A stretch of DNA of 64,000 nt, from positions 1,701,240 to 1,765,239 of the forward strand of contig NZ_FOYQ01000001.1 of the NCBI RefSeq assembly GCF_900115205.1, in the 5' to 3' direction. This DNA is from Robiginitalea myxolifaciens. GTDB lineage: Bacteria > Bacteroidota > Bacteroidia > Flavobacteriales > Flavobacteriaceae. Below are positions 50,680-57,605 of this stretch, in pieces (the stretch's first letter is position 1; each line of letters starts with the position of its first letter). The translations under genes and the position numbers were made by a program. The notes beneath the pieces are model-generated. The model saw nothing but the letters and a program-made list of their open reading frames with translations, did no database searches and had not been told where the DNA came from.

Positions 50680-50970
50680 TTAGAGCTGCAGTAAATAGGC
50701 GCCCAGGATAATTGCGAGATTAACCAGGGTGCTGACCACCAAAAGGCGATAGATCATAGTAGGCTTTTGCACCGTAAGTATGGCGGCGTTATGCGCACTA
50801 CAAACCGCAACGGTCAGCAGGACAATGCCCATTTGCAACAATCCGTTACCAAAACTCAGGGTCATCATAATGGCGAATGCCCCGAGGCATGTGGAAAGCA
50901 GGATACCCATGGAAGAATATCCGGCGATATTTCGTGTGAAATCGTTTTTGATATTGGTTAAAGCACTCAT
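50680..50970 (-). CDS. Small three-helix membrane protein under an FNR-like promoter
   Basis: A 96-residue protein with three hydrophobic segments (about 20-41, 43-62 and 74-94) and little else. ATG at 50970. I recognise no family with a known job. Its promoter is informative: an exact TATTTTTG -7 element 34-41 bases upstream and an FNR/CRP-like dyad centred 29.5 bp further, the same geometry as at the hemN and usp promoters. It is thus predicted to be part of the low-oxygen or stress set in this part of the window. Confidence 0.7.
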   Translation of the reverse strand: MSALTNIKNDFTRNIAGYSSMGILLSTCLGAFAIMMTLSFGNGLLQMGIVLLTVAVCSAHNAAILTVQKPTMIYRLLVVSTLVNLAIILGAYLLQL

Positions 50971-51004: not shown

Positions 51005-51012
51005 CAAAAATA
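51005..51012 (-). promoter_or_regulatory. -7 element of the 96-residue membrane protein gene
   Basis: Minus strand TATTTTTG, an exact TAnnTTTG. The same bases form the T-rich tail of the pckA terminator. Confidence 0.6.
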
Positions 51013-51073
51013 GGGCCACGGCTATGGGGATTCTATGACATTTGTCAGCTCCCGCAGTATAGCCGTGGCCTTA
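51011..51073 (-). terminator. pckA terminator with an internal FNR-like dyad
   Basis: GGCCACGGCTAT (51014-51025) and ATAGCCGTGGCC (51059-51070) are perfect 12-bp inverted arms, extendable by three more pairs with one wobble, 14 bases past the pckA stop and followed on the minus strand by CTATTTTTGG. The 33-base loop contains the dyad at 51036. Confidence 0.75.
51036..51047. promoter_or_regulatory. FNR/CRP-like dyad
   Basis: TGACATTTGTCA (TGAC-N4-GTCA). Its centre is 29.5 bp from the first base of the -7 element at 51012, the spacing of a class II activator site. Confidence 0.6.
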
Positions 51074-51086
51074 ATTATTTACTGGT

Positions 51087-52721
51087 TTATATGTGATCTT
51101 CCAGTTCGTGGTGGGAATCGATCAGCGGTCCGCCGTTGATGATTTCCTGCGAAGCCTCCCGGGCAAACTTGTCAAAGTTCAGGTGGAAGGAGTGCGCCAA
51201 TTGTATAGCCTTACTGATATAGGCACCTTTTTGGAGCCAGGTATTCATGGGATCCAGCATTTCAGTCGGTACCCCGGGACAGTATTTAGGCATGTGCAAT
51301 CCAAAAATCGGGTGCGCCTGATATTCGACATTGTCGAGTTCATCATTCAGGATGGCACTGATCATGGCTCGGGTGTACTTCAGTTTAATCCGCGATCCTA
51401 CCCCGTAAGGTCCGCCGCTCCAACCGGTATTGATCAGCCAGACCCGGGCTCCGGATTCTTTCATTTTATCGCTTAGCATTTCCGCGTAAATGGTGGGATG
51501 CAGGGGCATAAATGGCTCCCCGAAACAAGCCGAGAAGGAGGGAACAGGCTCATTAATGCCTGCTTCCGTACCCGCCACCTTGGCGGTATAGCCGGAAATA
51601 AAGTGGTATGCCGCCTGTCCGGGAGTCAGTTTAGATACGGGAGGTAGTACCCCAAACGCATCACAGGTCAGGAAAAAGATGTTCCTGGGATTCCCGGCCC
51701 GGGAGGGCACCTGAATGTTATCGATATGTTCAATCGGGTAGCTTACCCGGGTATTCTGGGTAATACTGCTGTCGAAAAAGTCAACTTCCCCGGTGCCAGG
51801 TTTAAAGACAACGTTCTCGAGGAGGGCGCCGGGTTTAATTGCCCGGTAAATATCGGGTTCGGATTCTTCGGTCAGATCGATGACCTTGGCATAACATCCC
51901 CCTTCGAAATTGAAGATCTGGTTATCCGCCGTCCATCCGTGTTCGTCGTCTCCGATGAGTTTGCGATCCGGGTCTGCGGAGAGGGTAGTCTTCCCGGTTC
52001 CGGAGAGTCCAAAAAAGATGGCTGTATCCCCGTCCTGACCTACATTGGCGCTGCAATGCATGGGCAATACATTCTTTTCAGTGGGGAGGATGAGGTTCAG
52101 GGCTGAAAAGATACCCTTCTTCATTTCTCCTGTATAGGCAGAACCGCCTACCAGCGCCACTTTTTCGGTGAAATTTAAGATGGAAAAATTACCGGCAATG
52201 ATTCCGAATTCTTCCGGATTTTCCGGCTGGTATCCGGGGGCACAGAGCACGAGCCATTCCTCTTCGAAATTAGCCAGCTCCTCCTCAGAAAGCCTCAGAA
52301 ACATGTTCTTGATAAAGAAATTGGACCAGGGATATTCGGTAATCACCCGAACATTCATCTGATACCTCGGGTCGGCACATACTGCAGCATCCCGGACATA
52401 TACAGTTTTATCTGAGAGATAGTTAATGACTTCCTTATGTAAAGCCTGAAAATGCTCCGTACTGATGGGTTTATTGATGCGTCCCCACCATACCAGGTCG
52501 CGGGTATAATCGTCCCGGACCAAAAAGCGGTCTTTGGGAGAGCGACCGGTGAATTTTCCGGTATTTATCGCAAGGGTTCCTTCTGAGGTTTCCACCCCCA
52601 TTCCCAAATCCAGGGTAATTCGCTGTAATTCTTCTCCGCTGAGGTTCCAATGGGCATCGGCATTGCCCAATCCGTATTTTTCCAATGATCTCATCGTTGT
52701 TTTCAAAGTTTTCATATTCAT
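51087..52721 (-). CDS. pckA: Phosphoenolpyruvate carboxykinase (ATP)
   Basis: Interconverts oxaloacetate + ATP and PEP + CO2 + ADP, the link between the TCA cycle and gluconeogenesis. The 544-residue protein has the kinase-1a loop GLSGTGKTTLSADP, the metal/ATP motif DDEHGW, the substrate loop FTGRSPKDRF near residue 60 and RVWLINTGWSGGPYGVG near 425. ATG at 52721 (a second Met two codons on). It begins 10 bases after the universal stress protein gene, so the two are probably one transcript driven by the promoter at 53552, and it ends at the hairpin at 51011. Confidence 0.97.
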   Translation of the reverse strand: MNMKTLKTTMRSLEKYGLGNADAHWNLSGEELQRITLDLGMGVETSEGTLAINTGKFTGRSPKDRFLVRDDYTRDLVWWGRINKPISTEHFQALHKEVINYLSDKTVYVRDAAVCADPRYQMNVRVITEYPWSNFFIKNMFLRLSEEELANFEEEWLVLCAPGYQPENPEEFGIIAGNFSILNFTEKVALVGGSAYTGEMKKGIFSALNLILPTEKNVLPMHCSANVGQDGDTAIFFGLSGTGKTTLSADPDRKLIGDDEHGWTADNQIFNFEGGCYAKVIDLTEESEPDIYRAIKPGALLENVVFKPGTGEVDFFDSSITQNTRVSYPIEHIDNIQVPSRAGNPRNIFFLTCDAFGVLPPVSKLTPGQAAYHFISGYTAKVAGTEAGINEPVPSFSACFGEPFMPLHPTIYAEMLSDKMKESGARVWLINTGWSGGPYGVGSRIKLKYTRAMISAILNDELDNVEYQAHPIFGLHMPKYCPGVPTEMLDPMNTWLQKGAYISKAIQLAHSFHLNFDKFAREASQEIINGGPLIDSHHELEDHI

Positions 52722-52731
52722 TATTTATGCG

Positions 52732-53523
52732 TTAATCAAGGCTTAAGATTGGCACCCGTGAATGCAGGGTCAGCAATTTTGTCAAGCGTCCGTCGGAAGG
52801 TTCCGTTTTGCGAGCATGGTTCCTGGGGATAATGACAAGCAGGTCTATATTCTTATCTTCCAGGTAGTTGTATATGCCCTGCTCAACATCCTGGTTTTTC
52901 TCGAAACTGTGCTCCACATAGAAGTTTTCCAGATAGTACTCCAGGGAATCCTCGTTGGAGGCCACCTCAACTTTTTCTGCATAGACCGATTCGGCGTAAA
53001 TGGTCAGGACGTGTACTTTGGCATTGAAGCTGCGGGCCACTGCCAGGAGGAAATCCAGTACGCTAGCATCCTCTATTTCCTCTTTCCCCAGTACCAGAGC
53101 GATTTCTTCCGGCCGCTTGGACTCACTGCCCATAGGGACTGAAATAACCGGGCACTCTGCTTCCAGGACCAGGTTGGAGGTATTGGTTACGTGCTGATCC
53201 AGACTGGTATCGCCCATGGTCCCCATAATGATCAAATCGGCTTCGGATTCCGTCTGAAGCTCCAGCAGGGCGCTTGGTAGCGCTCCCTCGGTTACCCGGA
53301 GTGCCGGTGAAATCATAGGTTTCTTATTAAGGTCTGCTACAATATTCCTAAAGGAGGTTTGGGTCTCTTGTAATTCGTATTCGGAAACCGGTTTTGAACT
53401 GAGGTAAACTGCAGTAATGGCAATGGGTTTATCGTAGCCAGCAAATTCCAGGGCATAGTCCAGGGCATTGATGGCGGCCTCGGTGAAATCGAAAGGAATC
53501 AGGATCTTATTTATGGTCTTCAT
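52732..53523 (-). CDS. Universal stress protein, two Usp domains
   Basis: A 263-residue tandem Usp protein. I start it at ATG 53523 (MKTINKILIPFDFTEAA), the normal Usp start; the ATG at 53583 lies upstream of the predicted transcription start. Domain 1 (2-140) has IIMGTMGDTSLDQHVT, in which the last Gly of the ATP-binding pattern G-2x-G-9x-G is Asn. Domain 2 (148-263) has lost the pattern. ATP binding is thus doubtful. First gene of a unit with pckA. Promoter: TACATTTG at 53552 with two FNR-like dyads. Confidence 0.88.
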   Translation of the reverse strand: MKTINKILIPFDFTEAAINALDYALEFAGYDKPIAITAVYLSSKPVSEYELQETQTSFRNIVADLNKKPMISPALRVTEGALPSALLELQTESEADLIIMGTMGDTSLDQHVTNTSNLVLEAECPVISVPMGSESKRPEEIALVLGKEEIEDASVLDFLLAVARSFNAKVHVLTIYAESVYAEKVEVASNEDSLEYYLENFYVEHSFEKNQDVEQGIYNYLEDKNIDLLVIIPRNHARKTEPSDGRLTKLLTLHSRVPILSLD

Positions 53524-53551: not shown

Positions 53552-53559
53552 CAAATGTA
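53552..53559 (-). promoter_or_regulatory. -7 element of the usp-pckA promoter
   Basis: Minus strand TACATTTG, an exact TAnnTTTG, starting 29.5 bp from the centre of the dyad at 53583. Confidence 0.65.
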
Positions 53560-53582
53560 GGTGCTGAAAACAGTATAAAACA

Positions 53583-53594
53583 TGATGATTGTCA
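53583..53594. promoter_or_regulatory. FNR/CRP-like dyad A, usp/tonB region
   Basis: TGATGATTGTCA (TGAT-N4-GTCA). It is the proximal site for usp (29.5 bp to the -7 element) and the distal one for tonB (64.5 bp). Confidence 0.6.
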
Positions 53595-53617
53595 GTTTGT
53601 TACCAAAGAATCAAACC

Positions 53618-53629
53618 TGATTTATATCA
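53618..53629. promoter_or_regulatory. FNR/CRP-like dyad B, usp/tonB region
   Basis: TGATTTATATCA (TGAT-N4-ATCA, the core of the FNR consensus). Proximal for tonB and distal for usp. Its centre is 35 bp from dyad A. Confidence 0.65.
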
Positions 53630-53652
53630 TATTTTTTACGTGGGGATCGCTT

Positions 53653-53660
53653 TACATTTA
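53653..53660 (+). promoter_or_regulatory. -7 element of the tonB promoter
   Basis: TACATTTA, seven of eight matches to TAnnTTTG, starting 29.5 bp from the centre of dyad B. Confidence 0.5.
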
Positions 53661-53682: not shown

Positions 53683-54408
53683 ATGGAACTAAAGAAGAAC
53701 CCTCAGGCAGATTTAAATAGGAATAGCCGACTCTATTTTTTGATCGGGCTTGCCCTTGTATTATTTACCACTTGGCGCCTCCTGGAGCACAAGACCTATG
53801 ATACCGTAAAGACTTACGATACCAGTTTCAACATGGAAGAGGTACTATTGGAGGAGGTCCCACAGACCCAGACGGTGAACACCCCGCCACCCCCAGCTCC
53901 ACCAACGGCACCAGCAGTTATCGAAATCGTGGATAACCTGGAGGAAGTGGAGGAATCCATAATAGAAAGTACCGAGAGTAGTCAGGATATGGCCGTCGAA
54001 GAAGTGGTTTACCGCCCCGACGATATCGAGGTAGAGGAAGTGGAAGAAGATGTAACCGTTCCCTTCGCCGTTATTGAAAATGTACCGGTGTTTCCCGGAT
54101 GTGAAGGATTGAGTTCAGAAGCTGAGCGCAAGGCTTGTTTTAATCAAAAAATGCAGGAACACGTTCAGAAGCAATTCAAGTATCCGGCTACCGCTCTTGA
54201 ACTCGGTATCTCTGGAAAAGTCTTTGTGCTGTTTTCCATAAACTCCGACGGGTATGTTACCAACATTAAAACCCGCGGCCCGGATAAATTACTGGAGGAA
54301 GAGTCTGTGCGAATAATCACAGCGCTTCCCAAGATGAAACCTGGCATACAGCGCGGAATTCCTGTAAAAGTGGGATACAGCATCCCGATTACTTTTAAAT
54401 TGGAATAA
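53683..54408 (+). CDS. TonB-family energy transducer
   Basis: A 241-residue TonB protein that passes proton-motive force to outer-membrane TonB-dependent transporters. An N-terminal helix (about 18-36) anchors it in the inner membrane. A Pro-rich and then Glu/Val-rich spacer (62-130) spans the periplasm, with the VFPGCEG box at about 138 leading into the C-terminal domain (VQKQFKYPATALELGISGKV, ending PITFKLE). No exbB/exbD genes are adjacent. ATG at 53683. It is divergent from the usp-pckA unit and shares its two FNR-like sites. A good terminator follows. Confidence 0.92.
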   Translation: MELKKNPQADLNRNSRLYFLIGLALVLFTTWRLLEHKTYDTVKTYDTSFNMEEVLLEEVPQTQTVNTPPPPAPPTAPAVIEIVDNLEEVEESIIESTESSQDMAVEEVVYRPDDIEVEEVEEDVTVPFAVIENVPVFPGCEGLSSEAERKACFNQKMQEHVQKQFKYPATALELGISGKVFVLFSINSDGYVTNIKTRGPDKLLEEESVRIITALPKMKPGIQRGIPVKVGYSIPITFKLE

Positions 54409-57496: not shown

Positions 57497-57504
57497 CAAA
57501 ACTA
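57497..57504 (-). promoter_or_regulatory. -7 element of the GCS2-CBS promoter
   Basis: Minus strand TAGTTTTG, an exact TAnnTTTG, starting 29.5 bp from the centre of the dyad at 57528. Confidence 0.65.
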
Positions 57505-57527: not shown

Positions 57528-57539
57528 TGATTTTTATCA
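57528..57539. promoter_or_regulatory. FNR/CRP-like dyad 1, GCS2-CBS/hemN region
   Basis: TGATTTTTATCA (TGAT-N4-ATCA). It is the proximal site for GCS2-CBS and the distal one for hemN. Confidence 0.65.
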
Positions 57540-57562: not shown

Positions 57563-57574
57563 TGACATTTATCA
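57563..57574. promoter_or_regulatory. FNR/CRP-like dyad 2, GCS2-CBS/hemN region
   Basis: TGACATTTATCA (TGAC-N4-ATCA). Proximal for hemN and distal for GCS2-CBS. Its centre is 35 bp from dyad 1. Confidence 0.65.
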
Positions 57575-57597: not shown

Positions 57598-57605
57598 TAG
57601 CTTTG
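57598..57605 (+). promoter_or_regulatory. -7 element of the hemN promoter
   Basis: TAGCTTTG, an exact TAnnTTTG, starting 29.5 bp from the centre of dyad 2 and 26 bases before the hemN ATG. Confidence 0.65.

Follow-up and report, generated by a model that had tools for sequence, protein, structure and literature searches.

Back-to-back dyads between usp-pckA and tonB in Robiginitalea myxolifaciens: probable class II sites of an FNR-like activator at a conserved distance from the promoter

Two divergent pairs with the same geometry

The window analysed here is a 64,000-nucleotide stretch of the Robiginitalea myxolifaciens genome (contig NZ_FOYQ01000001.1, positions 1,701,240 to 1,765,239), and the coordinates below are window positions unless a genome or locus handle is given. 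Within it, the usp-pckA unit and the tonB gene are directed away from each other, and the intergenic region between them holds two dyads, each facing one of the two genes. About 4 kb further on, hemN and a gene for a 615-residue CBS-domain protein are arranged in the same manner. The features of the two regions, together with another dyad of the same type in the window, are as follows.

50680-50970: open reading frame for a 96-residue membrane protein
51005-51012, minus strand: -7 element TATTTTTG of the dyad at 51036-51047
51036-51047, minus strand: fifth window dyad of the class II type, upstream of the 96-residue frame; 23 bases to the -7 element
51087-52721, minus strand: pckA, ATP-type PEP carboxykinase; same direction as usp, beginning 10 bp after it
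52732-53523, minus strand: usp, 263 aa, PF00582; first gene of the leftward unit
53552-53559, minus strand: -7 element of usp-pckA, TACATTTG; first base 53559; matches TAnnTTTG
53583-53594, minus strand: usp-pckA dyad, TGATGATTGTCA; centre 53588.5; TGA-N6-TCA core
53618-53629, plus strand: tonB dyad, TGATTTATATCA; centre 53623.5; followed by T-A-TTTT
53653-53660, plus strand: -7 element of tonB, TACATTTA; first base 53653; TAnnTTT with a final A
53683-54408, plus strand: tonB, TonB-family protein, 241 aa; ATG at 53683
57497-57504, minus strand: -7 element of the CBS gene, TAGTTTTG
57528-57539, minus strand: dyad serving the 615-aa CBS-domain gene
57563-57574, plus strand: dyad serving hemN
57598-57605, plus strand: -7 element of hemN, TAGCTTTG

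The usp and pckA genes presumably form one transcript. The ATG at 53523 fits best as the start of usp; the mechanical start of the open reading frame, at 53583, would place the promoter within the gene. In the direction of usp, the usp-pckA dyad reads TGACAATCATCA and is followed by T-G-TTTT. The dyad centres are separated by 35.0 bp, and each -7 element begins 29.5 bp from the nearer centre, leaving 23 bases between dyad and element (hereafter, “gap 23”). On re-reading, the coordinates, letters and both distances of a preliminary description of this region proved exact, as did its claim that the hemN region repeats the geometry: the 35-bp, 29.5-bp and 23-base values are all found there. The element TAnnTTTG lies at -7 in promoters of the Bacteroidota primary sigma factor, whose -33 element is weak and has not been identified in Flavobacterium johnsoniae, according to PMC7366714. 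Three of the four promoters in the two pairs match TAnnTTTG, the exception being tonB with its final A. The 96-residue protein has no match in Pfam or NCBIfam.

Could these arrangements be produced by chance? With the strict dyad defined as TGAy-N4-rTCA, the window contains eight dyads against an expectation of 3.42 +/- 1.72, and two of 100 shuffled sequences reach eight. The preliminary description had judged chance unlikely and proposed a genome-wide scan for such pairs. Across the 3.2-Mb genome, strict pairs with 18-28 or with 10-40 intervening bases occur only at usp-pckA/tonB and at hemN, both times between divergent genes; the reversed-pattern control gave no strict pair in this genome, and about 0.1 pairs would be expected genome-wide at gaps 18-28 from the dyad density of shuffled window sequence. 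When the strict dyad was combined with the -7 search pattern TANNTTTR at gaps 13-33 (21 lengths), eight of the 15 matches in the genome fell on gap 23, compared with none of the 14 matches obtained with non-strict dyads. In total, the combined search returned 29 matches, against 14 with the reversed pattern. The judgement that the sites are not due to chance is supported.

All eight gap-23 sites of this genome lie shortly before a gene start. The genes behind them, named from profile matches (NCBIfam, Pfam) or by our own reading, are a gene upstream of a usp, a cytochrome c gene, the 96-residue frame, usp-pckA, tonB, the 615-residue CBS gene, hemN, and a usp that follows an fnr-like gene. The seven strict matches at other gaps are distributed differently: three are within long coding frames (gaps 19, 19 and 30), one is within a 133-residue frame of uncertain coding status (gap 33), and three are intergenic or before a gene (gaps 22, 24 and 30).

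The site and its distance to the promoter in relatives

Alignment of 76 sites—mostly from hemN orthologues, and hence not independent—gives the consensus (A/C)TGA(C/T)-N4-(A/G)TCAT, in which T is overrepresented at positions +14 to +17 and A around +47 to +50. On the promoter side, TCA is followed by T rather than A in all 76 sites, although the search did not impose it, and by T in 21 of the 24 distinct gap-23 sites of a broader sample from the genus. At the opposite end (position -1), where the outer T of TTGAT/ATCAA would stand, the aligned sites have A in 39, C in 29, T in 4 and G in 4. The string TCAT(A/G)TTTT is found at all four promoters of the two pairs and is absent from the site of the 96-residue frame. 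In both pairs, the inner flanks of the dyads are G after TCA and C before TGA, while the outer flanks are T and A; four of the five named hemN loci with two dyads (hereafter, “hemN twins”) have the same flanks. Each dyad thus has a direction, since its inner and outer flanks differ. If the A-rich stretch marks the transcription start, the dyad centre would lie at about -41.5, which is the position of class II activators according to PMC5957442.

The distance between dyad and promoter is conserved, as judged from sequence comparison with relatives. In ten genomes of the genus, the strict search for a dyad and a -7 element gave 229 matches, as compared to 13 with the reversed pattern. Among the 150 matches listed, which span 13 gap lengths and seven genus genomes (our own included and the last in part), 112 have gap 23, 12 have gap 24 and 13 have gap 25. 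For usp, we used the best 11 loci and left aside the others, whose scores mark them as remote Usp paralogues. All 11 (our own and ten relatives) have a TGA-N6-TCA dyad at gap 23, which in five of them departs from the strict consensus by one base.

For hemN, 24 of 30 loci were used, the others being partial or remote, and the gap-23 arrangement is present in 18 of them, the site of one locus (L113) lying 369 bp upstream. Family members have it at 18 of 19 loci; none of the five loci from outside the family does. In a set of 80 named hemN loci, gap 23 was found in 40, gap 24 in three and any other gap in at most two, with neither gap 23 nor gap 24 in 37. For tonB, 24 of 30 loci were compared; 14, including our own, have a gap-23 dyad, and ten have no such dyad. 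The -7 element is looser (TAnnTT) than that of the window in 11 of the 14 dyad-bearing loci. Nine of the ten tonB loci within the genus carry the dyad, the exception being a locus of genome G200, which has a second tonB outside the count. On the tonB tree, the dyad-bearing rows group beyond chance without forming one clade (three changes, shuffled mean 7.7); this tree omits L292 and L296, and L289 is entered in it as dyad-less though it bears a dyad. Finally, the PEP carboxykinase gene of another genus member (L136), with a product 51% identical to that of the window, has its own dyad, followed by 23 bases and then TACCTTTG.

Usp and tonB are not neighbours in the eight genus relatives whose tonB has the dyad: they are found on separate contigs, and a gene other than tonB, often pirin-like by our reading, stands upstream of usp. 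Thus usp, tonB and, in one instance, pckA are each served by a site of their own. Within the genus, the genes that follow gap-23 sites—for the loci returned by the search, part of which have no assigned function—include those for ferredoxin, 2-oxoacid:ferredoxin oxidoreductases, the NiFe-hydrogenase small subunit, FixS, Usp and PEP carboxykinase. The preliminary description had linked usp-pckA and tonB to the signal that controls hemN, and this link gains support from the comparison: since gap 23 recurs in the relatives at the orthologues of usp, hemN and tonB, and at one pckA, usp-pckA and tonB very probably belong to the regulon of hemN.

Some further arrangements were observed. In three cases a single dyad has a divergent -7 element to either side, one at gap 23 and the other at gap 24 (G191:C22:216449/216480, G206:C22:195410/195441 and G204:C9:521568/521600). 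In our own genome, a dyad at gap 24 precedes a transporter-like gene (L004, G000:C3:913582); a transporter-like gene that resembles it by eye comes after usp in two relatives (L047 and L048).

A candidate regulator and the proposed mechanism

An FNR-like regulator gene (229 aa, G000:C3:1770133-1770819, L012:6134-6820) is located 5 kb beyond the window. It sits between genes for a metal ATPase and cytochrome oxidase, a cluster that we read as cbb3 maturation and oxidase genes, and a usp with its own site. The strict dyad before the fnr-like gene, which is among the three intergenic or pre-gene matches at other gaps, faces the opposite way: 23 bases separate it from AACATTTG, one base off the -7 consensus, which precedes the divergent metal-ATPase gene (ccoI by our reading). 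The protein matches PF00027, PF13545 and PF00325 above their cut-offs, and its PDB matches include an FNR-type regulator; its best NCBIfam match is Fnr, at 98.9 bits, far under the 228-bit cut-off. In E. coli FNR, the cluster cysteines are C20, C23, C29 and C122, and the E and R of the recognition helix read TGA. Among the 29 orthologues of the FNR-like protein that were counted (a thirtieth, L283, was left out), Cys6, Cys9 and Cys108 are kept in all 29, as are the recognition-helix E and R, while the place of C29 is taken by Asn in 27 and by Ser in two.

Two further observations concern regulator genes in the genus. Shortly before the regulator gene, G203, G204, G191, G206 and G200 have a dyad at gap 25, which differs by two bases from the class II distance and possibly reflects autoregulation of another type. 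Seven of nine genus relatives also have a further Crp/Fnr homologue with an open frame of 360-391 aa (for example, G206:C47:47173 and G191:C50:65808), and an eighth has a cut-off piece of it; a search of the window's genome at E 0.001 returned none. This extra homologue may account for the larger number of dyads in the genus relatives.

On the observed sites, their spacing and conservation, the genes behind them and the presence of the regulator gene, we base the following model, to which we assign a probability of about 0.8. A homodimeric activator of the CRP/FNR family, most likely the FNR-like protein, would bind each dyad and activate each of the divergent sigma-ABfr-type promoters in the class II manner, from about -41.5 relative to the predicted start site. 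Each promoter would have one class II site facing it, leftward for usp-pckA and rightward for tonB. The bound dimer would abut the weak, T-rich -33 region and touch RNA polymerase with the primary sigma factor of Bacteroidota, so that the active regulator, probably under low oxygen, would switch the promoter on. The twin layout would then be two class II promoters placed back to back. Low oxygen is the likely signal because the FNR-like gene lies beside the cbb3 genes and because ferredoxin, 2-oxoacid oxidoreductase, hydrogenase and FixS genes are behind the sites in the genus.

The assignment of the dyads to the FNR-like protein, which we infer as the most likely one, has to be weighed against other members of the family. 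In this genome, HTH_Crp_2 is matched by two genes and a cNMP-binding domain occurs in seven proteins. Carbon sensing has been predicted for the CRP/FNR homologues of a Flavobacteriales metagenome-assembled genome (PMC8510549). With several CRP-family genes present, the promoters might be driven by another of these proteins—the 210-residue one encoded at C3:1366728 or a short cNMP-domain protein—in response to a signal other than oxygen. The 210-residue protein, by our reading, is without the recognition-helix glutamate. This glutamate is the residue that reads TGA. In addition, the FNR-like gene sits amid the target genes, many of which are related to oxygen, and we consider a driver other than the FNR-like protein unlikely.

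A more detailed version of the FNR-like reading, which we offer tentatively and at somewhat less than even odds, is that a distinct clade of Flavobacteriaceae FNR proteins, with three cluster cysteines and Asn or Ser for the fourth, reads a directional (A/C)TGAy-N4-rTCAT site, together with a T-rich stretch, at a distance of exactly 23 bp upstream of the -7 element. Dyad and T stretch would jointly replace the missing -33 element, the low-oxygen regulon would include pckA and one TonB paralogue, and in the species of the window two gene pairs of this regulon would happen to stand head to head.

The spacing between the two dyads

Is the 35-bp spacing itself part of the design? The preliminary description had treated the symmetric twin sites as a unit, and this part of it was not supported. 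In five named hemN twins, the dyads are 31 bp (Flagellimonas algicola), 34 bp (uncultured Allomuricauda), 38 bp (Croceivirga thetidis), 52 bp (Muricauda sp.) and 52 bp ([Muricauda] lutisoli) apart, and a conserved 35-bp twin module was rejected on these values and on the counts that follow. In all five, the outward dyad for the divergent gene is at gap 23. The nine other genus genomes have 19 strict pairs, one of which is at 35 bp; usp has a single site upstream in the ten relatives; and a lone site is also what 17 of the 18 hemN loci that show the arrangement have. Two loci with two strict hemN dyads each, L232 (26 bp apart) and L247 (22 bp), were left out of the twin count, and a family-wide pair scan of 199 genomes, in which at least 94 had a match that was mostly noise by eye, was excluded from the evidence on spacing. 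Common ancestry of the two intergenic regions was also considered and set aside, their 23-bp inner spacers being dissimilar by eye.

The alternative that gives the spacing a function is one cooperative unit of two dyads 35 bp apart, in which each dimer would be a class II activator for one promoter and would occupy a position near -76.5 relative to the other. Expression of usp-pckA would thereby be tied to that of tonB, and likewise the CBS gene to hemN. Both pairs of this genome are at exactly 35 bp with no other strict pair at 10-40 intervening bases, and the pattern of inner and outer flanks is common to them and to four of the five named hemN twins. Nevertheless, the variable hemN twins, the one genus pair in 19 at 35 bp and the single sites at usp in relatives and at 17 of 18 hemN loci speak against such a unit; moreover, 35 bp amounts to about 3.3 helical turns. 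We regard a cooperative unit as quite improbable.

Least probable by far is that the dyads are chance palindromes, repressor sites or terminators: short palindromes often arise by chance, with 3.42 strict ones expected in the window, but the exact gap 23 recurs across genera, and a repressor site would not need a fixed position upstream of -7.

Returning to the independent class II promoters, the site-to-promoter distance is constant and the site-to-site distance is not. The 35-bp spacing is not conserved in the genomes compared and is probably incidental, and its double occurrence is best explained as coincidence, each divergent promoter pair having been built independently of the other.

The arrangement may be compared with known systems. 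The E. coli FNR site is TTGAT-N4-ATCAA, centred at -41.5 in class II promoters. The dyads described here are similar to it in their TGA...TCA core, in their predicted placement near -41.5 and in the low-oxygen genes served, including hemN, with an FNR-like regulator nearby. They differ in that the outer T is mostly A or C, in that the Bacteroidota -7 element TAnnTTTG replaces -10 and -35, and in that one of the four cluster cysteines of the regulator is Asn or Ser. In Pseudomonas aeruginosa, hemN is controlled by Anr/Dnr, and the likeness lies in the proposed FNR-type regulator over hemN, whereas the phylum, the sigma factor and the site consensus are different here. The CRP half-site is TGTGA. 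The dyads lack this half-site and the candidate regulator carries conserved cysteines, unlike in CRP class II promoters (centred at -41.5; PMC5957442), with which the predicted position class and polymerase contact would be shared. Sigma-ABfr promoters (PMC7366714) have the same TAnnTTTG at -7 and weak -33; here, however, the -33 region is a T-rich stretch that abuts an activator dyad at a fixed distance. On this analysis, the arrangement would work like an FNR/CRP class II promoter, yet we do not class it as a strict FNR system, because of two features that define FNR, the outer T is mostly lacking and the fourth cysteine is replaced. Within our partial coverage of the literature, which is no proof of absence, we found no paper that describes FNR class II promoters in Flavobacteriaceae.

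If the model is correct, the 23-base rule would make much of the low-oxygen regulon of one bacterial family readable from sequence, in a phylum whose promoters depart from the textbook ones. Oxygen-independent haem synthesis would share its switch with a PEP carboxykinase and a TonB paralogue, and the model would point to an FNR whose set of cysteines is altered. The case also illustrates how two ordinary promoters, standing back to back, can yield a strikingly symmetric design.
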